Below, piece by piece: positions 6,336-53,984 of a stretch of DNA of 64,000 bases. How positions within the stretch are numbered: the stretch's first letter is position 1; each line of letters opens with the position of its first letter. The notes beneath the pieces were generated by a model. That model saw only the letters and a program-made list of their open reading frames with translations, did no database searches and was not told the origin of the DNA. Made by a program: the position numbers and the translations under genes. Source of the DNA: a virus; the IMG/VR virus record IMGVR_UViG_3300037104_000592, positions 18,377 to 82,376 of that record, one strand, 5' to 3'.

Positions 6336-6355
6336 CATATTTGGAGAATACAAAA

Positions 6356-29617: not shown

Positions 29618-29992
29618 ATGACAATGTTAGAAGAAATTCTAGAAAAAACAAAAACTTTACCCACTGATGATCAATTAAAACAAATTTGTGATCAAATACA
29701 AAAAGAAGAAGAAGAAAAATTTAGAGATTATTTAGGAGAGATGCCAAAAGGACCCAATATGTTTCTAGCAATTTGGGTTCCTGGAATTACAGGAAAAGAA
29801 TTATGTTATGTATGTTTAGAAAGAGAATTTCCTGGTAAATATTTAGTAACTCTTTGGTCTAAATTATCCGAAAAAAGTATAATAAAAAAGAAATCATTAA
29901 TAAGAACAAAAGTTTGGGAAGTTAAAGAAAGCGCTCCAAAAAAGATTTTAGAAGAATATGCTAAAATACTTAAGTTCATGAGAGGAAAATAA
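29618..29992 (+). CDS. hypothetical protein, 124 aa
   Basis: Starts at ATG 29618 with AAGGAGAG close upstream. Helical N-terminal third, then a beta segment with Cys (GKELCYVCLEREFPGKYLV) and a basic C-terminal third. The stop overlaps the start of the E2-like gene by one base, so it may belong to the ubiquitin-like unit. No family recognised. Confidence 0.62.
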   Translation: MTMLEEILEKTKTLPTDDQLKQICDQIQKEEEEKFRDYLGEMPKGPNMFLAIWVPGITGKELCYVCLEREFPGKYLVTLWSKLSEKSIIKKKSLIRTKVWEVKESAPKKILEEYAKILKFMRGK

Positions 29993-33644: not shown

Positions 33645-34345
33645 GATTTAATGATATTTCTATAGTGGGTTTGGGTGGAATAGGCTCAATTTTAAGTAAT
33701 ACTATTTCAAGATTTATAAGTAACGATGCTAGAGAAAATGATCCAAGACAAATTATAAATTTAATTGATGGAGATTATTATGAAGAAAAAAACTTAGTTA
33801 GACAAGAATTTTTAAGATTTGGAAATAAAGCAGAATCTAAATTAAATGAATTAAGACCAAAATTTAATAATATTGAATTTAAAGATTATCCATATTTTAT
33901 AGATGATATAACTATTTCTAGAATAATTAAAGATAAAGATTTAGTATTTTTAGCAGTTGATAATCATAAAACAAGAAAATTAGTAAGTGATTATGCAAAA
34001 AAACTAAATGATATAATTATAATTTCAGGAGGAAATGAGCTAGAAGATGGTAATGTTCAATTGTATATTAGAAAAGATGGAGAAGATGTTACTCCATCTT
34101 TAACTGATTATCATCCAGAAATCAGAAACCCAATTGATAAATTACCAAATGAAATGAGCTGCGAAGAGTTACAAAACTCTGAACCACAACTATATTTTAC
34201 AAATTTAGGAGTGGCAACTTTTATGGCTTTTGCATTTTACAATGTCCTAAAAGGCTCAAATAATTTTTCAGAAGTATATTTTGATATGAACACAATGAAA
34301 GCTGATTCAAAAACAAGAAACTTAAAAAAAGAAAAAGGAGAGTAA
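33641..34345 (+). CDS. ThiF/E1-like activating enzyme (PRTRC ThiF-like)
   Basis: The start ATG 33641 overlaps the JAB stop (ATGA). 234 aa. ATP-binding Rossmann motif GLGGIG at residues 10-15; LIDGDYYEEKNLVRQ supplies the conserved D, N and RQ of E1/ThiF enzymes; VDNHKTR near 107 is the second signature. MSCEEL (C174) followed by PQLYFTNLGVATFMA corresponds to the SC..EAL..QDLFxN segment of PRTRC ThiF proteins. It would adenylate the C-terminal Gly of the modifier encoded next. Whether C174 forms a thioester is unknown. Confidence 0.85.
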   Translation: MRFNDISIVGLGGIGSILSNTISRFISNDARENDPRQIINLIDGDYYEEKNLVRQEFLRFGNKAESKLNELRPKFNNIEFKDYPYFIDDITISRIIKDKDLVFLAVDNHKTRKLVSDYAKKLNDIIIISGGNELEDGNVQLYIRKDGEDVTPSLTDYHPEIRNPIDKLPNEMSCEELQNSEPQLYFTNLGVATFMAFAFYNVLKGSNNFSEVYFDMNTMKADSKTRNLKKEKGE

Positions 34346-34354
34346 GGATTTATT

Positions 34355-34828
34355 ATGGCTAAAAAAGTATATTCGGCAGAGGAACTTTATAACAAAACAG
34401 TATCAGAACTTCGTGAAATGTGTGTTAAGTTTGGGATTACGGGTATGAGTAAAAGGAGAAAAGATGAGATTGTAGATGCTCTTTGTGATTATTATGAAGA
34501 TACAGCACCTGAACCCCAAGTTAAAACACCAGTTTCTTCTTCATCTATCGTTTCTATGAATGCTCAACTTTCGAGTTATAGAAACCCCGATTCAAAAAAT
34601 GATGACGATAAATACATCACCAATATTTTTGTGTCTTGCGGCGCAGCTTCTGGAAACTTCCCAGTTGTTGGAAAGAAAGTTGGAGCAGTTGCTGAATTCC
34701 TAAGAGAAGTTCTTAATATCGACCGTTTAAGTGTTGGAGTTGTGAATGGTGAAGAAGTTGAAGATAGTTATCTTCTTGCATCTGGAGATTCTCTTGAATT
34801 TCTAAAAGCAGGTGGTCGTAAAGGTTAA
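34355..34828 (+). CDS. ubiquitin-like (beta-grasp) modifier with SAP-like head
   Basis: 157 aa in two parts. Residues about 7-48 (NKTVSELREMCVKFGITGM, then KRRKDEIVDALCDYY) look like a SAP/Rho-N helix-extended-helix, often nucleic-acid-binding. Residues about 85-157 form a ThiS/MoaD-like beta-grasp domain, with VGVVNGEEVEDSYLLASGDS and the ending LEFLKAGGRKG. Gly-Gly is followed by Arg-Lys-Gly, so trimming would be needed to expose GG. It follows the JAB and E1 genes by ten bases. It uses more C and G at third positions than its neighbours, which fits high expression. Modifier function is inferred from context plus fold. Confidence 0.72.
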   Translation: MAKKVYSAEELYNKTVSELREMCVKFGITGMSKRRKDEIVDALCDYYEDTAPEPQVKTPVSSSSIVSMNAQLSSYRNPDSKNDDDKYITNIFVSCGAASGNFPVVGKKVGAVAEFLREVLNIDRLSVGVVNGEEVEDSYLLASGDSLEFLKAGGRKG

Positions 34829-34873
34829 TTTGTATTATTAAAAATATTATATTATAAAGAATCGGAGTTACTT

Positions 34874-35392
34874 ATGAAAGAAACACTAGATAAGCTTACA
34901 GATGAAGGTGTAAAGCAACTAAAATATTATTATAAGAAAACAAGGCTCTTTGGAAATATTTGCACTGTTTGTTTACTTATTGGAGAAAATAATGAACTTA
35001 TTTCAAGAGGAGTTTCTATTTGTTCATTATTAGATTCTCATAAAAAATCAACAGGAAAAAATATTGCTTTAGGAAGAGCAATAAAAGCTCTAAAAAATAA
35101 GAAAACAACAGATGAAATAAATCCAAATAGAGATTCTTTAACACATTGGATGTATACTAAAAATATAAATAAAAAAGATCCTTATTTTAGCGATATGTTT
35201 GAAGAAATTAAATATAATTGCTTTTCTACAAAACCTTTAAAAATTAATAAAGAAGAAGTTTTAAAAGTTGAAATACCAATGGATTTTCCATTGTATGCAA
35301 CTGTATCATTATTTACACATAAATCTTCATTTAAACCAACTCCTACGGATGAAGAAGTTAAAATAATTGAAAAAAGAAAAAAGTTAGATTAA
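34874..35392 (+). CDS. conserved hypothetical protein, 172 aa
   Basis: N-terminal CTVCLLIGENNELISRGVSI, then CSLLDSHKKSTGKNIALGRA, a pattern (RGxSICS...GRxIAxGRA) found in conserved phage proteins of unknown function. The start ATG 34874 follows ATCGGAG. It lies within the ubiquitin-like unit, just before the structured RNA, so it could be a target or accessory factor; nothing in the sequence shows which. Confidence 0.65.
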   Translation: MKETLDKLTDEGVKQLKYYYKKTRLFGNICTVCLLIGENNELISRGVSICSLLDSHKKSTGKNIALGRAIKALKNKKTTDEINPNRDSLTHWMYTKNINKKDPYFSDMFEEIKYNCFSTKPLKINKEEVLKVEIPMDFPLYATVSLFTHKSSFKPTPTDEEVKIIEKRKKLD

Positions 35393-35401
35393 ATTTTTAG
35401 A

Positions 35402-35569
35402 AAAATTGGGGTGGATAATCATACTGAATAAGTGGTTTTGAAACCTGGTACTAAGAAAGAGTGCGAACTCTGGGGCAGGAACCCAGATAGAAGCTTTAGA
35501 TGGCTCGATAGCTGACTGATAGATATTGCACCCAAAGTGCCTTATCCAGTATTATTCCACCCCAATTTT
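35402..35569 (+). ncRNA. multibranched structured RNA, 168 nt
   Basis: A 14-bp perfect closing stem (35402-35415 with 35556-35569, sequence AAAATTGGGGTGGA and its complement), then ATACTG/CAGTAT (35421-35426 with 35547-35552) and ATAAG/CTTAT (35428-35432 with 35541-35545). Inside are hairpins GGTT-TTGA-AACC (35434-35445), AGAGT-GCGA-ACTCT (35458-35471, a GNRA loop), a GGG/CCC hairpin (about 35472-35484) and GCAC-CCAAA-GTGC (35528-35540). No coding frame. The stem ends on the base before the AGGAGA ribosome site of the next gene, so it may be a cis-acting leader or a separate processed RNA. I could not match it to a known RNA class. Confidence 0.8.
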
Positions 35570-35581
35570 AGGAGATTAAAA

Positions 35582-35824
35582 ATGGGTAGTTATAATCAAG
35601 ATAAAGATGTTTTAATAAAAATGTTTGAAATGATTACAGATGAAAAGGGTTCTTCTCTAATGTTGTCTATTTTTTCATACGACAATGGACCGAAAAAATT
35701 AGCAATGACAAGATCATATAATAAAAAAGATGGATCTGTTGGATATTCTTCAGCAGGTAGATTAAGTCTTATGGAAGTTAATTTTCTAAAAGATAAATTA
35801 GATGAAATAATTAAAGAGATGTAA
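35582..35824 (+). CDS. hypothetical protein, 80 aa
   Basis: ATG 35582 with AGGAGATT immediately upstream; an in-frame GTG at 35537 lies inside the structured RNA and is rejected. The product has KMFEMITDEKGSSLMLSIFS and GRLSLMEVNFLKDKLDEII, mixed alpha/beta. No family recognised. It is the only gene whose ribosome site touches the structured RNA, so it is the best candidate for control by it. Confidence 0.68.
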   Translation: MGSYNQDKDVLIKMFEMITDEKGSSLMLSIFSYDNGPKKLAMTRSYNKKDGSVGYSSAGRLSLMEVNFLKDKLDEIIKEM

Positions 35825-35880
35825 CCCTCCCGATAACTATTTTTGATTTAAAGAACAAATAAAAGTCGTGGAGGAATAGA

Positions 35881-36756
35881 GTGTATAAAGATATAGCGAT
35901 TATAGGTTTAGGAAGTATAGGAGGTTTTTTATCGAGCAATATCATAAACATAGACACAATAAAATCTTTGGTTTTAGTTGATTATGATAGAGTAGAACTG
36001 GAAAATTTGAAAAATTCAATTTATAAAAAATCAGATGTTGGGAAATTTAAAGTTGAATGTGTATCTTCCGTTATAAAATTGTTCAATAGTGAAATAAATA
36101 TTACAGCAATAAAAGATAGATATATAGAGGGAAAAACAAAAATTCCAAAATGCGATTTAGTTATTGATTGTAGAGATTTTGTTTATGATAGAGGTTCAGA
36201 AATAAATATGAGATTATATATCTCTTCTAGACATTTAATAATTGATTGTAGAAAAGATATAAAATATCAATTACACTATGAAGGAAAATATATAGATACA
36301 TTAACAAAATCTGATATTTATTCTGCTACAGCTAATTTGTCAAGATTGATATTTAATGAAGAATTAAATGATATAATTAAAAACAATTTAGTTCATACAA
36401 TAGATATGGATGAATGCTTAAAATCAAGTGAAGAAACTTTAAATAACTATAATAATAAAATGGAAGTTGTTATGGATTATCATAAAAAGAATGATTGTTT
36501 CATAAATTTTCTTGAAAATGCAGAAAATATAATAAATTTCAATAAAAAAAGTGAAGTGAAAATTTGTCTAAACGATAAAAGATTTCCATTATCTACTAAA
36601 ATAATACCAAAAAATTATATTCAAAATGTAAATGACTTAAGTAAAAATTTTTTATCAATAATACCAGCTAAAAATCATAGTAGTTATATAGTTAAATCAA
36701 TTATAGAAAAAAATATTTGTTATGTAATTTTAATACCAGAAACAGGGGCTGCTTAA
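35881..36756 (+). CDS. second ThiF/E1-like protein with extra C-terminal domain
   Basis: GTG start at 35881 after GTGGAGGAA. 291 aa. Rossmann motif IIGLGSIGG at residues 8-15; LVDYDRVELENLKNS has the conserved D...D...E..N; SDVGKFKVE fits the 'dvG.pKa' helix; LVIDCRD near 94 corresponds to the D-N/D-R site. The usual arginine finger RQ is changed (NS), and the C-terminal ~70 residues (KICLNDKRFPLSTKI... to ILIPETGAA) are beta-rich and end Gly-Ala-Ala. That tail might be a beta-grasp-like extension; this is weak. Paired with a small E2-like gene two bases downstream. Confidence 0.7.
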   Translation: MYKDIAIIGLGSIGGFLSSNIINIDTIKSLVLVDYDRVELENLKNSIYKKSDVGKFKVECVSSVIKLFNSEINITAIKDRYIEGKTKIPKCDLVIDCRDFVYDRGSEINMRLYISSRHLIIDCRKDIKYQLHYEGKYIDTLTKSDIYSATANLSRLIFNEELNDIIKNNLVHTIDMDECLKSSEETLNNYNNKMEVVMDYHKKNDCFINFLENAENIINFNKKSEVKICLNDKRFPLSTKIIPKNYIQNVNDLSKNFLSIIPAKNHSSYIVKSIIEKNICYVILIPETGAA

Positions 36757-37550: not shown

Positions 37551-40247
37551 ATGCCAAATATATTAAACATAGATAAGTTTTGTGAAAACTTAAAAGGAAT
37601 TTCTTCTTTAAAAGCTATTGATAAAAGAAAATTCCATCCAAATGGATTATTCTCAGAGCAGATATTTGGTCCTTTAAAAAATTATACATGTCAATGTGGA
37701 ATATATCATGGAGTATCCAATGCAGGTGGAACTTGCGAAATATGTGGAGTTGATATTGTTCATAGTATTGAGAGAAGAAGAAGATTTGGAAAAATTGTTC
37801 TACCTTTGAAAGTTGTTAATCCAATTTTTTATGATTTGGTTATAAAATTGGGTGGAAATATATTAAAAAAGAATATAGATGAGTTAATGAAAAATGAAAA
37901 AAGTTATTTATATAAAGATGAAAATGATTATATTGTAGAAACTAAGTTACCCCATCCTACTAATACTCAAATATGGGATAGATCTGAAGCAATTTTTGAA
38001 TTAGTAAATGGACTTGCTACAGAGTTGGGAAATAATGAAAGTGGAATGGGAATTAAAGAATGGGAATTAATAAAAAATAATATTGATTGTTTATTTATTA
38101 AAAATGTTATAGTGTTACCACCTGATTTAAGACCTGCTGCAAAAGGAATGGATAAGAACGATCAACGAATGGATAAGATAAATAGATTTTATGTTCAAAT
38201 TCTTACAAAAAAAGAAAGTATGAGAAATACTCCTATAAATATAGAAACTGATAAAAGCGTATATTACAATTTTTTCAAGCAATTACAGAGAGATGTTAAT
38301 GAATTATATGAACATATTATTTCAAAAATATCCAAGAAAGAAGGTTTAATAAGAGGAAATATTTTAGGGAAGAGAATAGATTTCTCAGGTAGAGCTGTTA
38401 TTGTTCCAGAACCTTCTTTGAAATTAGATGAATGTAGTCTTCCATATTTAATGGTTTTAGAATTATTTAAAATTCAATTATCTAAAAAACTTATAGATTT
38501 AAAACAGTTTAAATTATTAAATGAAGCAATTGATTTTGTTGATAGGTGTATAGAATTATCAGATCCTATTTTATTTAATATTTGTCAAGACATAGTTAAA
38601 AATGAAGTTTGTTTACTTAATAGACAACCAACTTTACATAGATTAGGAATGATTGGATTTAAGATAAAAACTTCTTTAGATAAAGTTATAAAGATACACC
38701 CCCTAGTTTGTCCAGGATTTAATTCGGATTTTGATGGAGATCAAATGGCAGTATATATTCCGATTTCTGATAGGACAAAAGCAGAAGTTAGAGAAAAATT
38801 TATGTCAACTAAAAATTTATCTAATCCTTCAAATGGAAGTTTAATTACTATTCCAAGTCAGGATATGGTTTTAGGAATTTATATGTTGACTACATCATCA
38901 TTTGGAGAAGTTGAATATAAAGGTGAAAAAATAACAATTGGATCCAAAATATTCAATGAATGTTTACCAAGTGATTATCCATTAATAAATGGTTCAATAA
39001 ATAATAAGATCTTAAAAGAAACATTAAATGATATTAAAAATAAATATCCAGATGAAATAGTAACTGAAGTATTAGATAAAATAAAAGAAGTTGGTTTTAG
39101 ATTTTCAACAATATATGGAACCTCAATGTCTTTGAAGCATATTTCAATTGATGGAATTGATAAAATTAAAAATGATATTTATTCATTGGATAATATTCAA
39201 GATCAATTATCTGCAATCTCTAGTAAAAAAACTGAAGATATAATGAGGAAAAACTTTAAATATTCTTATCTTATAGATTCAGGTGCAAGAGGAAAATGGG
39301 ATCAGGTAAGACAAATAATTTTAACAAGAGGATATATTTCTAATTTTCAAGGAGATATTCTCCCAACCCCAATAAAGCATAATTTAATAGAAGGTTTAGA
39401 TCAACAAGAGTTTTTTAATTCAACATACGGTTGTAGAAAAGGATTATTAGATGTTGCATTAAATACAGGTGATTCTGGATATTTATCTAGAAAATTAATT
39501 TTCACTTGTGTTAACTTAATAATTGGGGAAGAAGATGATTGTGGAACAACAGATTATCTTGATATATTAGTTACTAGTGAAAAGAAAGCAAAAATGTTAA
39601 TTGGAAGATATTATTTAAATGATGGAAATTTATCTGAAATAACAGTTGAAAATCATAAAGGATTTGTTGGAAAATTAATTCAACTTAGAAGTCCTATTTT
39701 CTGTAAAAATGAAGAACTATGTCATAAATGTTATGGAAACTTATATAAAAATTTACATAGTAAGTTTGTAGGAATTATAGCTGCTCAAGCATGTGGAGAA
39801 GCTGGAGTTCAGCTAATTTTGAGAACATTCCATACAAGTGGTGTAGCAAAGATTTCGGAAGATCAAACAGATATGAGACAGTCAGATATCGTAAGTGATT
39901 TATCTTCTGTATCAAAAGTTCTTCATAATAAAGATAAAAAGGAATATAAAGAATTAGTTTCTAATTTATTTGACTTATATATTATAAATAGAGATATTCA
40001 CCATATTCATTTTGAATGTATAATTTCTCAAATGATGTGGAAAGGTTTTAGAAAATGGAGACTTCTACCAAATAGAGATAAAATTTCTTCAGACTATTAT
40101 TCAATTCAAACAGTTCCTGAAAAAGAAAGTTGGATTGTAGGATTAGCTTTCTCAAATCCAAAAAACCATATTTTAAAAGGAATTGTTCAAGATGGAAATT
40201 ATAAAGGAATTTTTGATAAAATAATGCTAGGAGAAATACCTAGATAA
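37551..40247 (+). CDS. DNA-directed RNA polymerase beta-prime-like subunit, unsplit
   Basis: An 898-aa single polypeptide. N-terminal zinc site CQCG...CEICG (near residues 45-64) as in beta-prime; active-site Mg loop NSDFDGDQMAVYIP with three Asp near 390-398; NRQPTLHRLG near 360; RGYISNFQGDILPTPI near 600; and a trigger-loop region IIAAQACGEAGVQ-LILRTFHTSG near 740. Both the N-terminal catalytic and C-terminal trigger parts are in one gene, unlike the split subunits of phiKZ-type RNAPs. It is shorter than cellular beta-prime (about 1,400 aa). Adjacent to the beta gene, as a likely single operon. Confidence 0.93.
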   Translation: MPNILNIDKFCENLKGISSLKAIDKRKFHPNGLFSEQIFGPLKNYTCQCGIYHGVSNAGGTCEICGVDIVHSIERRRRFGKIVLPLKVVNPIFYDLVIKLGGNILKKNIDELMKNEKSYLYKDENDYIVETKLPHPTNTQIWDRSEAIFELVNGLATELGNNESGMGIKEWELIKNNIDCLFIKNVIVLPPDLRPAAKGMDKNDQRMDKINRFYVQILTKKESMRNTPINIETDKSVYYNFFKQLQRDVNELYEHIISKISKKEGLIRGNILGKRIDFSGRAVIVPEPSLKLDECSLPYLMVLELFKIQLSKKLIDLKQFKLLNEAIDFVDRCIELSDPILFNICQDIVKNEVCLLNRQPTLHRLGMIGFKIKTSLDKVIKIHPLVCPGFNSDFDGDQMAVYIPISDRTKAEVREKFMSTKNLSNPSNGSLITIPSQDMVLGIYMLTTSSFGEVEYKGEKITIGSKIFNECLPSDYPLINGSINNKILKETLNDIKNKYPDEIVTEVLDKIKEVGFRFSTIYGTSMSLKHISIDGIDKIKNDIYSLDNIQDQLSAISSKKTEDIMRKNFKYSYLIDSGARGKWDQVRQIILTRGYISNFQGDILPTPIKHNLIEGLDQQEFFNSTYGCRKGLLDVALNTGDSGYLSRKLIFTCVNLIIGEEDDCGTTDYLDILVTSEKKAKMLIGRYYLNDGNLSEITVENHKGFVGKLIQLRSPIFCKNEELCHKCYGNLYKNLHSKFVGIIAAQACGEAGVQLILRTFHTSGVAKISEDQTDMRQSDIVSDLSSVSKVLHNKDKKEYKELVSNLFDLYIINRDIHHIHFECIISQMMWKGFRKWRLLPNRDKISSDYYSIQTVPEKESWIVGLAFSNPKNHILKGIVQDGNYKGIFDKIMLGEIPR

Positions 40248-40277
40248 AAAATTTTAACACCTCAGGAGGTGAAATTA

Positions 40278-43200
40278 GTGGATATAATAAATCCAAACTA
40301 TAAAATAAATGAAGAAAACAATATATTTTCAATAAGAGAAAAAGAATATAACTTAATAAAAGATAATGTAAGAGAAATTTTAAAAGCAGCAGAAGAAGTT
40401 GGTTTTTTAGTTAATGAACTTGGAATAACGGAATCTAAATTCTCATCTGGAGAATTACAGAAAACATTAAAGAAAAATTTAGTTATAAAATTAAGACGAG
40501 GATCTTCTGACATAGACTTATCTATGGCTATTCCAAAATTAATTGATAAAAATTATGTTATAATTGGAGGAAGGAAAAAAGTTCCTTTATTTCAATTATT
40601 TGATATTCCTGTAGTTACAAGAGGAAAAACTATAAAAATCAGAACCAATGTAGCAAGTATGATGATAGTAGATGAAAAAGAATTTCCATTTATTCATCTA
40701 TCAATTTTTAATAAAAAAGTTCCATTGTCCTTAGTCATATTTGCTTACTATGGTTTAGAAGAAACAAAAAATAAATTTAGTTTAGATAAAATAGAAATTC
40801 CTGAAATAAAAACTTTACATGATAAATTAATGACAGATTTAAAAGATTTTTATGAAGGATCAGAAGGGTTTACAAAAGAAGAATTTATCAAAGAAGTTGG
40901 TAAATTCTTCTCAACAAATGATGCAAAAAATAAAGGTGAAGATTTAATTTATGCTCTAGATCTTATTTTAAAGACCGATATAATGTCAGCTAAATTTTTC
41001 AAAACTGGAAACATTTTAGATGAAATTGTTGAGGTTATTAAATTAGGTGGTTATGATGATACTGATTTAAGAAATAAAAGAGTAAGGTGTTTTGAATATG
41101 TAATTTTAGCTAAAGTATCTAAAGCAATATTTGATCTATGTATGTCAAATAGATCAACCACAAGACAAGCTAAATTTAATGTAAATTCCAGTCAAATTTT
41201 ATCAGATTGTAATGTTTCAGATATTGTTCAATTTGATTTTTCAATAAATCCAATTGAACAATTAACAAAATTAACAAGAACAAGTTTGGTTGGTCCTGGT
41301 GGGTTTGACAGAGAAAATGTTCCAGAATATCTAAGAGATATTAATCCATCAATGTTTGGAAGAATTTGTCCTGTTGATACTCCTGATAGAGATAACTGTG
41401 GAATATTACAAAGTTTATTACCAAATACACCATTAGATGAAAATTTAAAATTTACAGATGAATCATTAGAAAAATCACCTATTTCTATTCCAGTTTCTTT
41501 AGTTCCATTTTTAGAACATGATGATCAAACTAGATTACAAATGGCATCATCACAAATGAGACAGTCTATTATGTTATCAGAGTTTGAAGTTCCTATGGTT
41601 CAATCGGGATGTGAAGGGTTATATACAGATCATAGTAGCTTTATAAAAAAGGCTAGAAAAAATGGAAAAGTATCTTATGTAGATCAGTTTAATATAATTA
41701 TTGTTTATGATGATAATGATTATGATATTTTTGATGTATCAAATAGAAGAATATATGTTGAAAATATGGATGTTATGAACATATATGTTTCTAAAGGAGA
41801 TAAAGTTAAAAAAGGAACGATTATTGCTGAAAGTAATTATTGTAAAGATGGAAAAATAAATTTTGGAAGAAATTTATTAACAGCTGTTATGCCATATTAT
41901 GGATATAATTATGAGGATGCAATTGTTATTTCTGATAGATTAGTAAAAGAAAATATTTTTACATCTATTCATTATATTGATTTATCATTTGTATTACCAG
42001 CAGATAAAATTTTACTTAGTTTAGAAAAAGATAAATATAAACCCCTTCCAACTCCAAAACCATATATAGATTTGGAAGAAGGAATTACAGAAGAAGAAAA
42101 AAGAAAAAGAAAAAGAGAATTAGTTTTAAAGGGTCAACATTATGCTATAATTAAACAAATTCCATCTACTACTTTGGATTACAATTCTATTTTCGAGGAA
42201 GAGATACCTTTAACTGCTAAAAGAGATATTTTAGTAACTGAAGTAAATATTTATCCTAATAAATGGAATGACTCAATTCCAAAATTTAATGAATGGATAG
42301 ATAAAAAATCTAAAGAACAAATAGATCAAGAGAATAAATTTAAGAGAATTATTTATGAAAATCTACCAAAAAGAAATGCTGATCAATATATAAGAGATCA
42401 TAATCTAGATAGATTTTCTCATATTGGAAAGTTTAAAATTAAAGGTGAAGAAATAAAAGGAACTTTAATTGAGATGTTTGGTTTTTATGTTAGACCAATT
42501 ACTATTGGAGATAAGATTGGAAACAGACATGGAAATAAAGGTGTAATTTCAAAAATAGTTCCACATAATCTTATGCCTAAATTAGAAGATGGAAGAAATG
42601 TTGATATATGTATAAATCCTTTAGGTGTTCCTTCGAGAATGAATGTTGGTCAAATATTTGAGTTACATTCTGCAATGTCTTTATATGATTTAAAAAAGAC
42701 TATGTTAAAAATGATAAAAGAAGGAAAATCCAAAGACGAATTGAAAACATATATTTTAAATTATATTAAAATCATTGATAATACAGAAAATAATTGGTAT
42801 TATAAACAGTTTGAAAAAAATATAAAAACTATAAATAAAAAGTTTATAGAAGATCTTACTATTCTTGCTCCACCATTTGAATCATCAACTAGAAAAATGA
42901 TATTAGATGCTTGTGAATATACAAATACCAAAACTGAATTTAAAGTATACGAACCATATGAAAAAATTGATATTCATGATATAGCTTGTGGGTTTATATA
43001 TTTCTTTAGAATGGTTCACATAGCTGAAAATAGATTAGCAGCTAGAGGGATTGGTTCATATGGAAGAAGAACAATGCAACCAGGTGGTGGTCGTAAACAC
43101 AAAGGAGGACAACGTTGTGGAGAGATGGAAATCGCAGCAATCATTGCTCATGGTGGACTTGAAAATCTATATGAAACTTTAACAACCAAGTCAGATTGTA

Positions 43201-43334
43201 TAGATCTTAAAAATAAACATATTAAGCAAGAAATAGGATCAGATTTCTTTAGAGAAAAAGAAGGAGATATTATAAAACCTGAAGCAGTTCAGCTTTTAGA
43301 GAATTATCTAACTGTTTTGGGTATAGAAAAATAA
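40278..43334 (+). CDS. DNA-directed RNA polymerase beta-like subunit, complete
   Basis: The start GTG 40278 is chosen because AGGAGG (40264-40269) lies eight bases upstream; a GTG at 40269 overlaps that site. 1,018 aa. INPSMFGRICPVDTPDRDN (a variant of the TPEGPNIG pocket, with Asp-Arg), PYYGYNYEDAIVISDRL, GDKIGNRHGNKGVISKIVPH near 744 with LNPLGVPSRMN-type motif (INPLGVPSRMNVGQ), and GGQRCGEMEIAAIIAHGG near the end. It pairs with the beta-prime gene upstream. The rifampicin-pocket change is worth noting. A hairpin follows the stop. Confidence 0.93.
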   Translation: MDIINPNYKINEENNIFSIREKEYNLIKDNVREILKAAEEVGFLVNELGITESKFSSGELQKTLKKNLVIKLRRGSSDIDLSMAIPKLIDKNYVIIGGRKKVPLFQLFDIPVVTRGKTIKIRTNVASMMIVDEKEFPFIHLSIFNKKVPLSLVIFAYYGLEETKNKFSLDKIEIPEIKTLHDKLMTDLKDFYEGSEGFTKEEFIKEVGKFFSTNDAKNKGEDLIYALDLILKTDIMSAKFFKTGNILDEIVEVIKLGGYDDTDLRNKRVRCFEYVILAKVSKAIFDLCMSNRSTTRQAKFNVNSSQILSDCNVSDIVQFDFSINPIEQLTKLTRTSLVGPGGFDRENVPEYLRDINPSMFGRICPVDTPDRDNCGILQSLLPNTPLDENLKFTDESLEKSPISIPVSLVPFLEHDDQTRLQMASSQMRQSIMLSEFEVPMVQSGCEGLYTDHSSFIKKARKNGKVSYVDQFNIIIVYDDNDYDIFDVSNRRIYVENMDVMNIYVSKGDKVKKGTIIAESNYCKDGKINFGRNLLTAVMPYYGYNYEDAIVISDRLVKENIFTSIHYIDLSFVLPADKILLSLEKDKYKPLPTPKPYIDLEEGITEEEKRKRKRELVLKGQHYAIIKQIPSTTLDYNSIFEEEIPLTAKRDILVTEVNIYPNKWNDSIPKFNEWIDKKSKEQIDQENKFKRIIYENLPKRNADQYIRDHNLDRFSHIGKFKIKGEEIKGTLIEMFGFYVRPITIGDKIGNRHGNKGVISKIVPHNLMPKLEDGRNVDICINPLGVPSRMNVGQIFELHSAMSLYDLKKTMLKMIKEGKSKDELKTYILNYIKIIDNTENNWYYKQFEKNIKTINKKFIEDLTILAPPFESSTRKMILDACEYTNTKTEFKVYEPYEKIDIHDIACGFIYFFRMVHIAENRLAARGIGSYGRRTMQPGGGRKHKGGQRCGEMEIAAIIAHGGLENLYETLTTKSDCIDLKNKHIKQEIGSDFFREKEGDIIKPEAVQLLENYLTVLGIEK

Positions 43335-44937: not shown

Positions 44938-45308
44938 ATAAAGAAAATACACAAAGATTAACAGAAAATTTTCCTAAACTATATGGAGAAAACTTTCGAT
45001 TTTCATGTATGGATGGGTGGTTTAATCTTATATATGATTTGTCAGAAGAAATAACTAAATTGGATCCTGAATGTCAAGCAGCTCAAGTTAAAGAAAAATT
45101 TGGCGGATTAAGATTTTACATAGGTGCAAGACCAAAAGAAATATGGAACTTAATTGCTAAATATGAAAATGAATCTTGGAAAATTTGTGAGAGTTGTGGA
45201 TCATCTGAAAATGTAAAAAGAACCAGTGGTGGGTGGGTTCATAGTTTTTGTAATAATTGTACAGAAGAGTATTATAAAGAAAGGAAAAAAGATATAAATG
45301 ACAAGTGA
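44934..45308 (+). CDS. conserved phage protein with zinc site, 124 aa
   Basis: The stretch VKEKFGGLRFYIGA and the Cys pairs WKICESCGSS...FCNNCTEE match a conserved phage hypothetical family that I recognise by its KEKFGGLRFY core. It overlaps both neighbours. Function unknown; zinc binding is likely. Confidence 0.72.
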   Translation: MNKENTQRLTENFPKLYGENFRFSCMDGWFNLIYDLSEEITKLDPECQAAQVKEKFGGLRFYIGARPKEIWNLIAKYENESWKICESCGSSENVKRTSGGWVHSFCNNCTEEYYKERKKDINDK

Positions 45309-46152
45309 ACTTCCAGATATACAGCACTCTGAAATTCCGAAATATAAAATATATATAAATCAAGTTGGTGTTGATCATGTTAAAGTTCCATTTTTATTAG
45401 ATAGTTTGTATGGGGGAACTCATAGTCTTATAGCTGATGTTGAAATGTCTGCTGATTTAAGAGAAGATATTAAAGGAATATCTATGTCTAAACTTTTAAG
45501 AACTTTAATTAAATATTTAGATAAACCTTTAAAACATGAAATAATTCAACAAATTTTAGAAGAGTTTAAAACAGCTGTTGAAACTGATTCAGAACATAGT
45601 GTTATTAAATTTGAGTTTGAATTACCAATTAATAAAAAAGCGCCAAAATCAAATATGGTTTTTCCTCAATTTTATAAATGTGGATTTTCTGGAAAATTAG
45701 ATCATACTGAGTTTAGATTCTTTTCTAAAGTTAGGGTTCAATATCAATCCTATTGTCCATGTTCAGCATCTTTATGTAATCATTTATATGAAAATGGAGT
45801 TAATGGGTTTCCTCATGCGCAAAGAAGTTTCTGTGATTTATTAGTTGAAGTGAAACCTGAAAATGTTATCTGGTTAGAAACATTAATTGAATTAGTCGAA
45901 AATGCAGTTTCAAATAGAGTTTATCCTCTACTTCGAAGAATGGATGAACAAATAGTTGCTAAAATTGCTGCTGAAAATCCTCAATTTGTTGAAGATAGTA
46001 TTAGAAGAATTTGTAATGCTTTAAATCAAGAAGAGTTTATTTATGATTATATTTTGAAATGTAGTCATGAAGAATCAATACATACTTCAAATGCAATAGC
46101 AACTGCTTGGAAAGGAGTTCCTGCCGGATTTCGTGGGACATATTATTTATGA
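45298..46152 (+). CDS. folE2: GTP cyclohydrolase IB (FolE2 family)
   Basis: A complete 284-aa member. The family landmarks are VGVDHVKVPFLLDS, THSLIADVEMSADLREDIKG then SMSKLLRTL, YCPCSASLCNH (the LCPCS metal/active-site Cys) and FPHAQRSFCDLLVEV (AHNQRS-like). It would convert GTP to dihydroneopterin triphosphate, the substrate of QueD at 19856, the start of the 7-deazaguanine (queuosine/preQ0) route used by some phages to modify DNA. Folate use is the alternative. It overlaps the gene before it by 11 bases and the gene after by 4. Confidence 0.85.
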   Translation: MTSELPDIQHSEIPKYKIYINQVGVDHVKVPFLLDSLYGGTHSLIADVEMSADLREDIKGISMSKLLRTLIKYLDKPLKHEIIQQILEEFKTAVETDSEHSVIKFEFELPINKKAPKSNMVFPQFYKCGFSGKLDHTEFRFFSKVRVQYQSYCPCSASLCNHLYENGVNGFPHAQRSFCDLLVEVKPENVIWLETLIELVENAVSNRVYPLLRRMDEQIVAKIAAENPQFVEDSIRRICNALNQEEFIYDYILKCSHEESIHTSNAIATAWKGVPAGFRGTYYL

Positions 46153-46409
46153 AAAAATCACTATTAGAAGATTTAAGTTATTCTTTAAAACCAATTTCTG
46201 AAGCAGACTATGTTTTTGGTATTGAAAATAATAAAATAATAACTTTAAAATCAAGAACCGGAAGTACTTATCCAAATAATAAAAATCATAGTATTAAAGA
46301 AATATATGATATAATTAAAAAAATAGTTACAGATTTTAAATCAATTGATACATCACAATCTAAAAAACTAAAAAAAAGAACTGTCTTATTTTTACAATTA
46401 GAAGAATAA
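46149..46409 (+). CDS. hypothetical protein, 86 aa
   Basis: ATG 46149 overlaps the FolE2 stop (ATGA). Charged sequence with a basic C-terminal half (SKKLKKRTVLFLQLEE). No family recognised. Confidence 0.6.
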   Translation: MKKSLLEDLSYSLKPISEADYVFGIENNKIITLKSRTGSTYPNNKNHSIKEIYDIIKKIVTDFKSIDTSQSKKLKKRTVLFLQLEE

Positions 46410-46431
46410 ATAAAATTATTGGGGGAGTATA

Positions 46432-46950
46432 ATGTATAAAAAACTTAAAAATTTAATAGATAAATGTTGTTGTTTCAAAAAAACTTCTCATAAATTTTCT
46501 GAGATCAAATCATTGGAAGAATGGGAAAAAATAGAAAAAGAGTGGAAACAAAATCATCCTATTCTTTACATTTTAAGAGAAACTTATTATTGGTGTTATA
46601 GACTATGGAATCATAAAATAGCTATGATACCAAAAGAAATAAAATGGTTTTGTCAAAGAGGAAGAAGAGGATATTCAGATTGTGATGTTTGGAGTTTTGA
46701 TTGGTATTTAGCTGAAGTTATTTCAAAAGGGTGTAAACAATTAGCTAAAGAAAAACATGGATATCCTTATGGTTTAACTGAAGAAGAATGGGATGTAATT
46801 ATAAATAAAATATCTGATGGATTTGAAGAGTATATGAAAATTATAGATCATGAAGAAGAATATGATAAAATTACTCAAGAAGATTTCGATAAAAAAATGG
46901 ATGAACTTTTTGGATTATTAAGAAAATATTTTGTAAACTTATGGGATTAA
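46432..46950 (+). CDS. conserved phage protein, 172 aa
   Basis: The core RRGYSDCDVWSFDWYLAEVI, with YPYGLTEEEWDVIINKIS then FEEYMKII, belongs to a widespread phage family of unknown function. The gene at 60757 is a distant relative with the same order of motifs (RGFDSSELWSFFNTITDFIL; W...ILDKMI..FE; LFVNWYFALW). Starts with GGGGGAG before ATG 46432. Confidence 0.7.
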   Translation: MYKKLKNLIDKCCCFKKTSHKFSEIKSLEEWEKIEKEWKQNHPILYILRETYYWCYRLWNHKIAMIPKEIKWFCQRGRRGYSDCDVWSFDWYLAEVISKGCKQLAKEKHGYPYGLTEEEWDVIINKISDGFEEYMKIIDHEEEYDKITQEDFDKKMDELFGLLRKYFVNLWD

Positions 46951-46954
46951 AATT

Positions 46955-48106
46955 ATGATTGAAAAAGCAATGGAGTTATTAGACGTTAAGAAAGACGAAT
47001 TAAATAAATTTTCAGAGATTGATTCATTTAACAATAATCATTTATTAGAAGGTTTTATATGTAGAAAATCAGATCATAGATATGGAGCGCTTATAATTTT
47101 TAAAGTTAATGATGAAGAAACTGAGCAAATTATTTGGGCAACCCCAAAGCTTCATTATCCTTTTGATAAATCAGGAAAATATAATTGGCCCAATGTTTTA
47201 CAGCAAGAATTTTGGGAAAAATTAGATGGAACAAATATCTTGTCTTATTGGTATGTATATAAAGGTTGTAATTATGTGTCATACAAAACAAGACTGACAG
47301 CAATTGTAAAAGATTCAGGATTTTCTAATTTTAAATCAATGTGGTCTGAATATATGAAAAATAATGATTGGGTATATAAATGTATAACAGAAAATATAGG
47401 ATGGAATTTATCATTTGAATTATTCGGAAGTAGAAACCCTATTACAATAAAATATGATGTTCCATTAGAAGTAAATTTACTTTTTGGAATCAGACAAAAA
47501 GATCATATAATACGACCTCCAAGTGATTTATATCTTCCAAAAAATACTAAAACTCCTAGAACATATACTTTAACTGATGGTGGAGATAGTTTAACAGAAA
47601 TGTATAACTATTTCAGAACTTTCGCATCTGAAAAAAATAAAGATGATCTTTTAACAGAAGGTATGGTAATGTATGCTCATGTTGGAGAACCATCTTGGAG
47701 GATGTTCAAATGTAAACCTGAGGAAATTGAAAGAATACATTGGACGGCATCTGGAGTGATTTCAAGACATTCTTTATTTACAACTGGAATGAATGTATTT
47801 GAAAGTTATGATGATCCAATTCTTGATAATTTCTTAGAGTTATTAAAAGAAGAATACCCTCAAAAATTATTAACAAAAAATACATTTAAAATTGAAAAAG
47901 TTTGGCATGAGGTTTGTGCAAGAATAGAGTTTACTCAAGTTGTAAATTCAGTTTGGAAAAAAGCTATTGATAAAGGATTTGATGTTACAAAAGATAAAGT
48001 TGAAACAATGAGATTTGTATCACAATATTTTCCTAAAAATGTTATGAATAAAGTTGGTGGTATTATTTTAAAACAAGCTGGATTATTAAAGGAGAGAAAG
48101 AAATAA
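46955..48106 (+). CDS. RNA ligase (nucleotidyltransferase superfamily)
   Basis: 383 aa. Motif I EKLDGTNI supplies the AMP-acceptor Lys (K89); motif III WNLSFELFGSRN; motif IV LLTEGMVMYAH; motif V WRMFKCKP. These fit an ATP-dependent RNA ligase of the T4 Rnl2/DraRnl type. It would seal nicked RNA, for example tRNA cut by host anticodon nucleases, a known phage repair role; no anticodon-nuclease gene is seen nearby. The C-terminal ~120 residues are helical, as in Rnl enzymes. Confidence 0.82.
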   Translation: MIEKAMELLDVKKDELNKFSEIDSFNNNHLLEGFICRKSDHRYGALIIFKVNDEETEQIIWATPKLHYPFDKSGKYNWPNVLQQEFWEKLDGTNILSYWYVYKGCNYVSYKTRLTAIVKDSGFSNFKSMWSEYMKNNDWVYKCITENIGWNLSFELFGSRNPITIKYDVPLEVNLLFGIRQKDHIIRPPSDLYLPKNTKTPRTYTLTDGGDSLTEMYNYFRTFASEKNKDDLLTEGMVMYAHVGEPSWRMFKCKPEEIERIHWTASGVISRHSLFTTGMNVFESYDDPILDNFLELLKEEYPQKLLTKNTFKIEKVWHEVCARIEFTQVVNSVWKKAIDKGFDVTKDKVETMRFVSQYFPKNVMNKVGGIILKQAGLLKERKK

Positions 48107-48274
48107 ATGAAAGATGATTTAAAAGAAGTTTTAGATGAAATGAAAAAAGATCAAGAGAAACATCTTTTAAGAGAACCAGGATATTATTCTAATTCCCTAA
48201 TTACAAAAAGAAATAGTGGAATAAAACATCAATTTGAAGATTCTATTGGTGGGTGCTCAGCAAATTATAAATAA
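48107..48274 (+). CDS. hypothetical protein, 55 aa
   Basis: ATG at 48107 one base after the RNA ligase stop, with AGGAGAG 11 bases upstream. Charged helix (MKDDLKEVLDEMKKDQEKHL) then a Gly/Ser-rich end. No family recognised. Confidence 0.58.
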   Translation: MKDDLKEVLDEMKKDQEKHLLREPGYYSNSLITKRNSGIKHQFEDSIGGCSANYK

Positions 48275-48303
48275 AATAAAAATTTATAGGGAGAGAATGT
48301 AAA

Positions 48304-48570
48304 ATGGGATCTGTTAGAAAAACATATACAACTGAAGATGAAATAGATTATATAAATAATATATCTAGTAGAAAAGATAAAAACGGAGATATAATAATGC
48401 ATAAACTTTATAAACTTATGCGTTATAAAAAATCATTATTCAGAAGGTTTTATTGGGGAGATATTGATAAAACAAAAACTTTAGAACATTTAGAAAATTT
48501 AATAGATAAAGAATTTGAAATATTACCTGAAATTAAACTTGTAACAAATAATAAAAAGAAAGGAGTTTAA
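48304..48570 (+). CDS. hypothetical protein, 88 aa
   Basis: ATG 48304, GGGAGAG upstream. Begins MGSVRKTYTTEDEIDYINNI; basic helical middle (RYKKSLFRRFYWGD). The N-terminal part is of a type seen in small phage proteins. Function unknown. Confidence 0.62.
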   Translation: MGSVRKTYTTEDEIDYINNISSRKDKNGDIIMHKLYKLMRYKKSLFRRFYWGDIDKTKTLEHLENLIDKEFEILPEIKLVTNNKKKGV

Positions 48571-48571
48571 A

Positions 48572-48853
48572 ATGGCATCGGTAAATGAAGTTTTATCTTT
48601 ATTGAAAGTTATTAGAGAACGATTAAATGAATTAAAAGGGTTAAGAAATCAAGTATCTGTAAAAGATAAGTGGATGCGAGATGATTCTAAAGTAACAGAA
48701 CCACAATATTCTGTTCAATTAGTTGATAAGAAGATAGTCATGCTTCAAAATTTCATATTTCTTGCAGATTCTAAAATTAAGTCAATAAATGCAAAAACAG
48801 AAGTAGAAGGTTTAGAAGTTAATGTAAGCGACCTCTTAAGTCCTCTTGAATAA
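48572..48853 (+). CDS. hypothetical coiled-coil protein, 93 aa
   Basis: All-helical sequence LLKVIRERLNELKGLRNQVS with heptad-like spacing, likely a coiled-coil dimer. ATG 48572 with AAAGGAG upstream. Ends nine bases before a structured RNA. Unknown. Confidence 0.62.
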   Translation: MASVNEVLSLLKVIRERLNELKGLRNQVSVKDKWMRDDSKVTEPQYSVQLVDKKIVMLQNFIFLADSKIKSINAKTEVEGLEVNVSDLLSPLE

Positions 48854-48861
48854 AGGGGAAT

Positions 48862-49025
48862 TAAGCGACATTCAGAAAAAACTACAACTCTTGTTCCCGA
48901 AAGGGACATCCCTTCGTGTTACCCTACACTTTTAAAAAACAATATTGTTGTTAATTTATTATGGGGTTAAAGCGAATATATTGTTGAAACTTGTTGTAAT
49001 CTGTAATTTTTTCTGACGTCGCTTA
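48862..49025 (+). ncRNA. structured RNA, 164 nt
   Basis: Outer stem TAAGCGAC (48862-48869) with GTCGCTTA (49018-49025); next TCAGAAAAAA (48872-48881) with TTTTTTCTGA (49007-49016); then TACAAC (48883-48888) with GTTGTA (48993-48998). Inside are two overlapping hairpins that cannot form together: GTTCCC-GAAA-GGGAC (48893-48907, GNRA loop) and AAGGG-ACAT-CCCTT (48901-48914), plus GTGT-TACCCT-ACAC (48916-48929) and an AACAATATTGTT palindrome (48939-48950). No coding frame of useful length. Unrelated in sequence to the RNA at 35402. Confidence 0.78.
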
Positions 49026-49041
49026 CATTTTCAAAAATATT

Positions 49042-49335
49042 ATGGAAAAAATGATAAAAGTAGGTGATAAAGTTTGGACTTTTGATCCATGGGATTATAA
49101 AGTTTTAATTAGAGATATAGAAACTATACATAATAATATTGTATTTTTTAAATATGATTCTATTGAATTTTTTCCTGAATCATCTAATTATTCAGATGTA
49201 TATTTTACAAAAGAAGAAGCAACAAAAGGATTAATAAAACATATAGAAAATGAAATTAAAAAATATAGAATAAATATAAAATATTTTAAAAATTACATTA
49301 AAGAATTAAAAGAAGGAGATTTTAAAAATGGCTAA
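49042..49335 (+). CDS. hypothetical protein, 97 aa
   Basis: Starts at ATG 49042, right after the structured RNA; no strong ribosome site is visible for it, and a second ATG is at 49051. Begins with a small beta-barrel-like KVGDKVWTFDPWDYKVLI and ends with a long charged helix. It may be controlled by the structured RNA upstream. Overlaps the VWA gene by eight bases. Confidence 0.6.
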   Translation: MEKMIKVGDKVWTFDPWDYKVLIRDIETIHNNIVFFKYDSIEFFPESSNYSDVYFTKEEATKGLIKHIENEIKKYRINIKYFKNYIKELKEGDFKNG

Positions 49336-51094
49336 AAAGAAGAAGGTAGCAGAAACACTTAAGACTATTCTTGATAATCCAGTTATGGAAGTTATTAGGG
49401 ATAGGGCACAAGACATTGATGCAGTATTTGAAGAAGTTAATAGTTGGTGGGGTTATGACCTACTAAAAAGAAAACCAGGTCCCGCTTGTGTTGATGAAAA
49501 TTTTGTAGGAACTGATTTAGATCTCGCTTGTTTTCTATATGAACTATCAAGAAGAAATGCAGTTATTAACATTCCATCATACAAAAGTATGAGAGCAACT
49601 AAATTAAAAGAAGGTCAAGGAGTTATCTCTAAAGATAATAGGCATGGGTGTGTTCTTGGTCTTGCCGCTAATAAAGATGTGTTTTCATTCTCATTAAGAA
49701 TTAAAGATATGAATGTAATTTCAACTGATAAAGTTGGAGATTATAGAAATTTTTCAATCACAGATTTAGATGGGGATTGGTATCCTGGTTGGAGCAACCT
49801 TGAATTTATCCCAACAGCTAAAGAAAATAAATTTATTTTTGAAAATAAATTAGCAGTAGATAATAATATTTATTTTAAGAATTTTGTCCACCCCAATCGC
49901 TGGAGTTCTCTATTCGGCCAGTTTTATTTTATGACCAAAGCTTTAATAAATAGATTAAAAGAAGAATGTCAATATTATAATAAAGAAATTAAAAGCATGT
50001 TAGATGAAGGAATTAAATATCCCACAAAAGATGCTCCTATGGATTGGCCTGAATCTGAAAAAATACCTGGAAAGAAAGTTAAAGTAAAATCTTTTGAAGT
50101 TGAACTTGATGTTCCTGATAATGATTCTAAATATCCTACTTATAAACACAATGTTAAAAATTTAGTTGAACTTACAAATAAGAGAAAATATTTTACATAT
50201 AAAGTTATTCCAGATTTTAATTTTGCAGTTAGAACTGTTGAATATTCTTATTATAAATTTGGAAATGATAGAATTCCAGGTTGGATTTCAAATACACCTT
50301 GGGAAAATAATTATGTGGTTCCTGGTAAGAGAACTAAATGGGATAGAATGGTTCTATTTCAAGATAAAGTTGGAGAAGTAGGAATTTCTATTAAGAAAAG
50401 AATTTATGAAACAACTCAAGAAGTTGCATTGGGATATGATCATAGAAAAGGAAAACTTAAGAATTATGTAGCTATTATTCTTGATGAATCTGGATCTATG
50501 AATTCAATTAGAGAAGAAACTATTGGAGCATTTAATCAACAGGTTGAAACAATTAAAGCAAATGCTCATGATATGGAAACTTCAGTAAGTTTAGTGACAT
50601 TCAATACTTTTGTTGATAAACCTAAAATTTGGAATCAGTCTGAAATGTCACTTAAACCAATTACTTTAAAGGATTATGTTCCAAGAGGAATGACAGCATT
50701 GTATGATGCTGTTGGTGAAACGATTGATAAATTAAATAAGGTTGAAGATATTAATGAACCAGACACATCTTTTCTATTGGTTATTCTTTCAGATGGTGAA
50801 GAAAATGCATCTAAAAATTATAATTATAAAACTATTGCAGAAAAAATATCTGGAGTTCAAAATACAAAAAAATGGACTATTACCTTTATTGGAGCAAATC
50901 AAGATATGCAACAGTTAAGTAAACAGTTACATATTCCTGTTGGAAATGTTACTGCTTTTGCAGCAACCAGTAGAGGAGTTAAAGATGCAGGATTTACAGT
51001 AACTATGGGATTAAATAATTATTATAAGTCAAGAAGAGATGGAGAAACTATGATGAGCAGCTTCTATGTTGATGATAGTAAGAAAAAGGATTAA
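49328..51094 (+). CDS. VWA-domain protein, 588 aa
   Basis: The C-terminal half is a von Willebrand A domain: VAIILDESGSMNSIREET near residue 381 gives the DxSGS metal site, and later PRGMTALYDAVGE and LLVILSDGEENAS supply the rest. The N-terminal ~380 residues have no recognised domain and contain many Trp and Lys. Such proteins often bind AAA+ ATPases or surface partners. It is separate from the MoxR/VWA pair at 7271-9849. AGGAGAT precedes ATG 49328. Confidence 0.78.
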   Translation: MAKKKKVAETLKTILDNPVMEVIRDRAQDIDAVFEEVNSWWGYDLLKRKPGPACVDENFVGTDLDLACFLYELSRRNAVINIPSYKSMRATKLKEGQGVISKDNRHGCVLGLAANKDVFSFSLRIKDMNVISTDKVGDYRNFSITDLDGDWYPGWSNLEFIPTAKENKFIFENKLAVDNNIYFKNFVHPNRWSSLFGQFYFMTKALINRLKEECQYYNKEIKSMLDEGIKYPTKDAPMDWPESEKIPGKKVKVKSFEVELDVPDNDSKYPTYKHNVKNLVELTNKRKYFTYKVIPDFNFAVRTVEYSYYKFGNDRIPGWISNTPWENNYVVPGKRTKWDRMVLFQDKVGEVGISIKKRIYETTQEVALGYDHRKGKLKNYVAIILDESGSMNSIREETIGAFNQQVETIKANAHDMETSVSLVTFNTFVDKPKIWNQSEMSLKPITLKDYVPRGMTALYDAVGETIDKLNKVEDINEPDTSFLLVILSDGEENASKNYNYKTIAEKISGVQNTKKWTITFIGANQDMQQLSKQLHIPVGNVTAFAATSRGVKDAGFTVTMGLNNYYKSRRDGETMMSSFYVDDSKKKD

Positions 51095-51095
51095 T

Positions 51096-51308
51096 ATGAA
51101 AATCGAAAAATTGTTGTATATTACTCCTGAGAGCGATGTTGAAGATTCTCTTCTTATAGGTTTAGGATTATGTTGGATTCCTAAACGAACAGGATTTCCT
51201 ACCTATACTTGTTCATTAAGTGAAAAAAATGAAATATTAAATAGGTTAGATGAAATTGAAAAATTAATAGATGAGGAGAAAAAAAGTAGTGGAAGTTCTA
51301 AACATTAA
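51096..51308 (+). CDS. hypothetical protein, 70 aa
   Basis: ATG 51096 one base after the VWA stop, AAAGGATT upstream. Contains ESDVEDSLLIGLGLCWIPKR; ends with a charged Lys/Ser tail. Overlaps the next gene. No family recognised. Confidence 0.58.
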   Translation: MKIEKLLYITPESDVEDSLLIGLGLCWIPKRTGFPTYTCSLSEKNEILNRLDEIEKLIDEEKKSSGSSKH

Positions 51309-51633
51309 AAACAGTAAGAAATATACACCAGTTGGAACATCTTTAATGGGATATTTAAGAGCAGATATAAATGATATAATTAAAGTTTTAGGTGAACCAG
51401 ATAGTGAACCATCTGGAGACTCTAAAGTTGATTGGGAATGGATTTATAAATTAGACAATGAAGTTGTTACAATTTATAATTATAAAGATGGTCCGTCTTA
51501 TTTAAAAAATCCAAATATAACAATTGATAAAATAGAAGATTGGCACATTGGGGGAAACTCTCGTAGAGCAGTAGATTTAGTAAGAGATCTATTTGAAGAG
51601 AATAATATTAAAAGTGTGGTTTATGCAAACTGA
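51289..51633 (+). CDS. hypothetical protein, 114 aa
   Basis: GTG 51289 is favoured as the start because GAGGAG lies 10 bases upstream; an in-frame ATG at 51271 has no ribosome site. The product has DINDIIKVLGEPDSEPSGDS and VDWEWIYKLDNEVVTIYNYK, a compact alpha/beta protein seen in phages as 'hypothetical'. Overlaps the following start by 11 bases. Confidence 0.6.
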   Translation: MEVLNIKNSKKYTPVGTSLMGYLRADINDIIKVLGEPDSEPSGDSKVDWEWIYKLDNEVVTIYNYKDGPSYLKNPNITIDKIEDWHIGGNSRRAVDLVRDLFEENNIKSVVYAN

Positions 51634-51970
51634 AGAACTTATTGAATTATATTTAAAAGAGAGAGATTATCAAACTTTAGTGTTTGGTAATTATTCAAAA
51701 AATCCAGCTTTAAATTTTGGAACATTTATCATATTTCTTGACCAATATTTGGAAAAAATTAAGAAAGCATATGTTGATAAATGGGATAGAAATCTACCAG
51801 ATTGGATGATAACTTCAAAAGAATTTATTCAACAAAAATCAGCTCCAGTTGAAGCGTATGAACATTTAATAAAATTAATGGCTTTGGCTGGAGCAGCTCT
51901 TGAAATTTATACAGATATTAATGTAGAAAATTGGAGAGCAGAGGGGATAAATAAAAAATGGGAAGATTAG
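51623..51970 (+). CDS. conserved phage protein, 115 aa
   Basis: ATG 51623; the preceding gene ends 11 bases inside. Helical, with NPALNFGTFIIFLDQYLEKI and VEAYEHLIKLMALAGAALEI, of a kind common in phages. A link to MazG-type enzymes is possible from the helix pattern but no metal motif is seen. Function unknown. Confidence 0.6.
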   Translation: MQTEELIELYLKERDYQTLVFGNYSKNPALNFGTFIIFLDQYLEKIKKAYVDKWDRNLPDWMITSKEFIQQKSAPVEAYEHLIKLMALAGAALEIYTDINVENWRAEGINKKWED

Positions 51971-52200
51971 AAGAGTTAATACCTGAAATGGGAAAGACAT
52001 TTTTTATAGGAGATACTGAATATAAAGTATGTTTTATTAATAACGAAAAATGCAGATTTTCTGCAGATCCCAATTCAGAAGCAAAAAGCATACCTCAGAT
52101 GGGAAATAAATTTATGATTGAAAGTAATTCATATAAAGTTACTTATGTTCATGAAACAAAAAAAAGAATAACCGCTATACCATTATCAGTAGGTTATTAA
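51958..52200 (+). CDS. small tandem-repeat protein, 80 aa
   Basis: Two similar halves: MGKTFFIGDTEYKVCFINNE-KCRFSADP at residues 11-38 and MGNKFMIESNSYKVTYVHET-KKRITAIP at 48-75. The repeat (G-x2-F-x-I-x3-x-Y-K-V) looks like a small beta-barrel unit duplicated in tandem, as found in phage proteins of unknown function. ATG 51958 overlaps the previous stop region. Confidence 0.65.
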   Translation: MGRLEELIPEMGKTFFIGDTEYKVCFINNEKCRFSADPNSEAKSIPQMGNKFMIESNSYKVTYVHETKKRITAIPLSVGY

Positions 52201-53870: not shown

Positions 53871-53880
53871 GATTTTCTTT

Positions 53881-53960
53881 GCTTGATACATTTTACTTTT
53901 AAAATAAGACTCAAAAATTATAAATATTGTCATCTTCATTTTAGGGTAAAATGTATCAGC
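53881..53960 (+). ncRNA. long-stem structured RNA, 80 nt
   Basis: A 13-bp stem, TGATACATTTTAC at 53884-53896 with GTAAAATGTATCA at 53946-53958, extended by GC/GC at both ends with one bulged T. Inside, AAAATAAGAC and GTCATCTTCATTTT can pair next (53901-53910 with 53929-53942), leaving an AT-rich terminal loop. No T-run follows, so it is not a simple terminator. It fills the gap before the gene at 53985. Confidence 0.65.
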
Positions 53961-53984
53961 ATTAGAAAAATTAGGAGATAAGAT

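Follow-up and report, generated by a model that had tools for sequence, protein, structure and literature searches.

Few non-coding RNAs are known from phages, and most large uncultured phages have never been searched for them. The stand-alone structured RNAs encoded by phages include the pRNA of phi29, GOLLD, and the small stable RNAs of T4; in the phi29 pRNA, the 5' and 3' ends are paired in a long helix that surrounds a loop-rich domain. On the bacterial side, Y RNAs are bound by Ro60 proteins (TROVE plus VWA) and are often encoded near RNA-repair genes. In AT-rich genomes, GC enrichment is an established sign of functional RNA. The locus described here lies in an AT-rich (26.7% GC) stretch of 64,000 nucleotides, referred to as the window, which covers positions 18377-82376 of a virus record 82,376 bases long. 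It resembles the phi29 pRNA in that it would be a phage-borne ncRNA whose paired ends enclose a loop-rich domain of similar size, but differs from the pRNA, GOLLD and the T4 RNAs in that it matches nothing in Rfam and no common sequence has been shown; the candidate thus belongs to a known kind, that of phage structured RNAs, but to no family. The reading favoured here, to which we give an even chance, is that the stretch encodes an orphan structured phage ncRNA of ~165-210 nt, on the plus strand and embedded in an operon; it is preferred over, in falling order of probability, an intercistronic mRNA structure, a cis-acting leader and a DNA-level repeat.

A rough gene call places every retained gene of the window on the plus strand, with mostly short gaps, and no tRNA was found there. 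Within this dense genome, the structured element occupies a 197-nt gap between an upstream ORF of 93 aa (48572-48853, plus strand) and a downstream ORF of 94 aa (49051-49335, plus strand; 97 aa if read from the ATG at 49042); relatives were sought for both ORFs and none was found, and the gap holds no plus-strand ORF of at least 40 aa. The initial annotation had placed the RNA at 48862-49025, ahead of a gene at 49042 described as having no clear ribosome site. The site is weak indeed, but the gene more plausibly starts at 49051 (TATGGAAAAAATG), where a weak GGA ribosome site is present, and equally weak sites are found at many genes of the same phage. As for the extent, the structure is real but larger than proposed, since it reaches upstream into the 48572-48853 ORF and spans, at its maximum, 48821-49032.

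The closure of this element has statistical support, and the proposed switch is its weakest point. Three nested closing helices had been proposed, and all are recovered by modelling, with pair probabilities mostly of 0.75-1.0: an outer helix of 8 bp (48862-48869/49018-49025), a second of 10 bp (48872-48881/49007-49016) and an innermost one of 4 bp (48883-48886/49002-49005). The 5' side of the inner part (TCAGAAAAAA C TACA, 48872-48886) pairs with 49002-49016 at 0.75-1.0. This helix has C-A mismatches on the plus strand where the minus strand would form G-U pairs, and strong selection for a plus-strand RNA fold is made less convincing by this. In the pairing model, the 3' side of the closing helices (49002-49032) is common to two alternative 5' arms. 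The first arm (AATGTAAGCGAC, 48821-48832), located in the 3' end of the upstream ORF, forms a perfect 12-bp helix with 49018-49029, with modelled pair probabilities mostly of about 1; any such 12-mer inverted repeat appeared in just 6 of 3000 local shuffles. This arm co-occurs with P2, a 12-bp hairpin (48835-48865) that carries the stop codon of the upstream ORF and is more stable on the plus strand (-11.4 kcal/mol) than on the minus strand (-6.1 kcal/mol). The second arm (48856-48869), used without the first and excluding P2, is modelled to pair with 49018-49032 if the transcript starts past the stop codon or if 48821-48832 is blocked.

The 64-kb window has three copies of the motif AAGCGAC, all within the element: two on the plus strand (48826 and 48863) and one on the minus strand (49018). 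They lie in the two alternative 5' arms and the one common 3' arm, so that closure survives the blocking of either 5' arm. The closing helix being able to accept either arm, the molecule would close with or without the 3' end of the upstream gene. Which arm is used could depend on a ribosome that is completing translation of the upstream ORF; in the models, however, blocking either arm preserves the closing helix and barely alters the accessibility of the downstream start codon (0.13 to 0.22). The pair of arms thus looks more like a way of making closure robust than like a switch that has an output.

The region enclosed by these helices includes a GC-rich, C-rich centre (48888-48929, 52% GC) whose C count is equalled at only one other place in the 64 kb. 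It contains the two overlapping, mutually exclusive hairpins that had been noted previously: hairpin 1 (48892-48908), a CCC-GAAA-GGG stem-loop with a GAAA tetraloop, about -5.9 kcal/mol and a probability of 0.66, and hairpin 2 (48898-48916), with an ACAU loop, -6.5 kcal/mol alone and a probability of 0.23. Hairpin 2 also excludes helix 48913-48917/48972-48976, which, together with 48921-48926/48962-48967 (ACCCTA/TGGGGT), forms an apical helix (48913-48976; probabilities 0.45-0.67) that is not significant as a domain. When a definition fitted after the case had been seen was applied to local shuffles, 1.2% of them had a pair of overlapping exclusive hairpins of similar strength; among 556 genomic tiles, 1 did. 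Folded alone, the central domain (48887-49001) has chance-level stability (z -0.82), so that the statistical support covers the closure of the element and not the detail of its centre.

Alternative helices just ahead of a gene whose ribosome site is weak recall riboswitches and translation-coupled leaders, and a riboswitch or translation-dependent leader acting in cis on the 49042/49051 gene, in which alternative hairpins or arms would alter downstream expression, could draw on two mutually exclusive pairs: hairpin 1 against hairpin 2, and the first arm with P2 against the second arm. In addition, P2 and the first arm share sequence with the upstream ORF, so that a translating ribosome could choose between arms. 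We nevertheless regard such a leader as unlikely, and the switch inferred in the initial annotation is not borne out: the overlapping hairpins lie in the chance-level centre and reach neither the ribosome site nor the start codon, the element includes no intrinsic terminator, the 3' arm is paired whichever state is modelled, and start-codon accessibility is nearly constant (0.13 to 0.22). None of the features that would give a switch its output was seen when looked for. Unlike riboswitches, therefore, the element neither sequesters a ribosome site nor forms a terminator in any modelled state; moreover, it matches no Rfam family and no known aptamer, and the product of the downstream gene offers no metabolic hint. 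A control role for this gene is at most possible.

Taken as a whole, the element is far more stable than chance would predict. Including the upstream part makes the fold better: the plus strand of 48815-49041 attains -61.7 kcal/mol (z -5.4 to -5.7, about -5.5), the minus strand reaches a weaker -57.2 kcal/mol over the whole element, and none of 200 dinucleotide shuffles was as stable. Stability beyond that of composition-matched shuffles is hence a property of the complete element and not of the centre alone (z -0.8), the fold signal stemming from the closing helices and one extra hairpin. In a plus-strand fold scan of the whole window, the frame of which was aligned to the element and gave it a slight advantage, the element ranks second with z -5.1, against a minimum of z -4.1 in the shuffled control; several coding stretches come close to it, and z is near 0 in most other sizeable gaps. 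A scan using windows that did not span the whole helix missed the element. The first rank is held by a long simple hairpin at 4622-4695, very long and near-perfect (arms of 37 nt, 86% complementary; z about -9), which lies in an intergenic gap and contains AAGCGA on its minus strand. The gap at 53871-53984 is filled by an imperfect inverted repeat, with arms TGATACATTTTAC/GTAAAATGTATCA (z -4.8 on the plus strand, -6.4 on the minus strand). With regard to the element itself, the earlier description as a structured RNA is backed by the closing-helix statistics, by a GC-rich centre in a 26.7% GC genome and by the intergenic position; modelled end-to-end folding beyond chance, combined with the GC-rich centre, indicates that this stretch of ~165-210 nt is probably a structured RNA.

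A second locus in the window follows the same plan. The sister element (35402-35569, plus strand) fills the gap 35393-35581, has a 14-bp perfect closing helix (AAAATTGGGGTGGA, 35402-35415/35556-35569) around a GC-rich centre, with z -4.3/-5.8, and runs right up to the AGGAG that serves as ribosome site for the following gene; it has no Rfam match even at E <= 5. It shares the architecture of 48821-49032 without sequence similarity. Only two places in the window have a perfect inverted repeat of 12 bp or more with at least 4 G/C and a spacing of 60-260 nt, against 0.44 expected from shuffles, and both are these two intergenic gaps. Independently, 42-mers as GC-rich as the centre of the element are confined to predicted genes except in this one pair of gaps. 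No argument for a functional RNA is stronger than this convergence of two unrelated signals, which suggests that the phage has a small set of structured RNAs of one architecture and no common sequence. That they would represent a new class of RNA in this phage lineage, sequence-unrelated but built on one plan (a long perfect closing helix, an AT-rich second helix, a GC-rich centre, and an exact fill of the intercistronic gap), possibly processed from operons and serving an infection-specific function, for example with a phage-protein partner, is a rather unlikely extension. If the element is indeed an RNA, this genome, which also encodes multi-subunit RNA polymerases of its own, has two structured RNAs or more that Rfam does not see, and the coincidence of a GC-rich island and a long closing helix in the same gap provides a practical sign by which others could be sought in AT-rich phages.

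The location of both elements between genes also accommodates a simpler proposal, that of an mRNA structure without a specific RNA function, which would serve in RNase III-type processing, in mRNA stability, or in bridging the upstream stop and the downstream start. The fold signal does reside in the closing helix and not in the centre, and in both elements the helix starts at most 10 nt from the upstream stop (here with the second arm) and ends just before the start region of the next gene. Without such bridging, reinitiation fails past about 20-40 nt (PMC10666635). However, a bare hairpin would be enough for any such purpose, which leaves the GC-rich centre without explanation, and translational coupling is reported, in a review, to be reduced by structure placed straight after the stop codon (PMC12548453). 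On balance, an intercistronic structure of this type is improbable.

An explanation at the level of DNA must also be weighed, namely a remnant resembling a MITE or transposon with terminal inverted repeats (TA followed by AGCGAC at one end, GTCGCT followed by TA at the other), or a set of repeated protein-binding sites. Each arm is an inverted and diverged copy of the other (88% over 25 nt), the AAGCGAC sites are repeated, and the interior is non-coding and as short as that of a MITE, with TA at both ends; flanking TA is, however, uninformative since it is its own complement, and no convincing target-site duplication is seen. Unlike MITEs, the element is single-copy everywhere searched, with no second copy in the record, in phages, in plasmids, or by arm patterns in IMG/VR and GTDB genomes. 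A DNA-level origin, which would account neither for the GC-rich centre nor for the unrelated sister element, is thus very unlikely.

Searches for relatives returned no family. The earlier proposal of an Rfam search as a check led to no match: Rfam release 15 at curated thresholds gave none in the window, and at E <= 10 over 48700-49200 the output was noise, consisting of five weak hits that fall well short of threshold and belong to unrelated families. Neither blastn in phages and plasmids nor pattern scans of IMG/VR and GTDB genomes, collections that may leave out records very near the window, gave a homologous element. The core 17-mer CCCGAAAGGGACATCCC has two matches in IMG/VR, both apparently in coding sequence and with similarity ending there, and the closing arms GTAAGCGAC...GTCGCTTAC have two, without further pairing or similarity; a stricter arm pattern is absent from IMG/VR and occurs once in GTDB genomes, where it falls within an iron-sulphur-repair-like gene and the alignment is limited to the pattern. 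All of these were set aside as chance.

For the favoured orphan ncRNA, the following scheme can be proposed. The RNA would be transcribed as part of a polycistronic phage mRNA, and its 5' and 3' ends would be held together by the long closing helix, via either of the two 5' arms; the double-stranded base might be a site of nuclease processing or protect the RNA, and the functional part could be the GC-rich centre, as a binding site for a protein or for a second RNA. The paired ends also recall Y RNAs, and a VWA-domain protein of 588 aa (49328-51094) is encoded close downstream, with the VWA domain in its last third and a match below the curated cutoff. A Ro60-bound Y RNA was rejected: no TROVE domain and no Y-RNA match were found, and a predicted structure of the VWA protein, with a pLDDT of 30, gave no information. 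Another VWA-like gene, unrelated-looking, is present elsewhere in the phage. Three further candidates were discarded: an antisense RNA, as the minus strand is also foldable, like that of any inverted repeat, but the element over its full length is more stable on the plus strand; an intron, the size being too small and Rfam giving no group I/II match; and a programmed ribosome bypass, in view of the lack of any hint that the flanking ORFs form one protein.

The wider genome offers some context. No relative came from searches with single proteins, for which both flanking ORFs, the VWA protein and RpoB were used, but a two-row RpoB alignment search identified a relative phage, L013 (RpoB 58%, RpoC 55% and FolE2 59% identity). 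In L013, the genes that flank block 46149-52200 of the window are adjacent and the whole block is absent, so that this block and the RNA in it are lineage-specific relative to L013; this absence counts against the favoured ncRNA and could be cited in favour of the DNA-level explanation. Next to the block, 45298-46152 encodes a FolE2-type GTP cyclohydrolase (E 1e-63), kept in L013 (59%). Within the block, a 383-aa protein (46955-48106) has KLDGTN and FELFG motifs reminiscent of nucleotidyltransferases/RNA ligases, but searches of Pfam, PHROGs, PDB and phages gave nothing significant for it. RNA polymerase beta/beta'-like genes are present in two sets (125-3157, 37551-40247, 40269-43334, and L088 13375-16407), the two beta proteins sharing only 30% identity. 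The cluster at 29992-36756 contains a weak E2-like match, a weak JAB-like protease, two ThiF/E1-like proteins, and a small protein that begins like Rho_N/SAP, ends in GGRKG and could be a ubiquitin-like modifier; taken together, these read as a phage ubiquitin-like conjugation set, perhaps PRTRC-like. Finally, as read from translations only, a topoisomerase/gyrase A-like gene (15298-17820) is seemingly interrupted by an intein with an HNH-type endonuclease, and further homing-endonuclease-like genes are found at 6341-7255 and 21915-22733.
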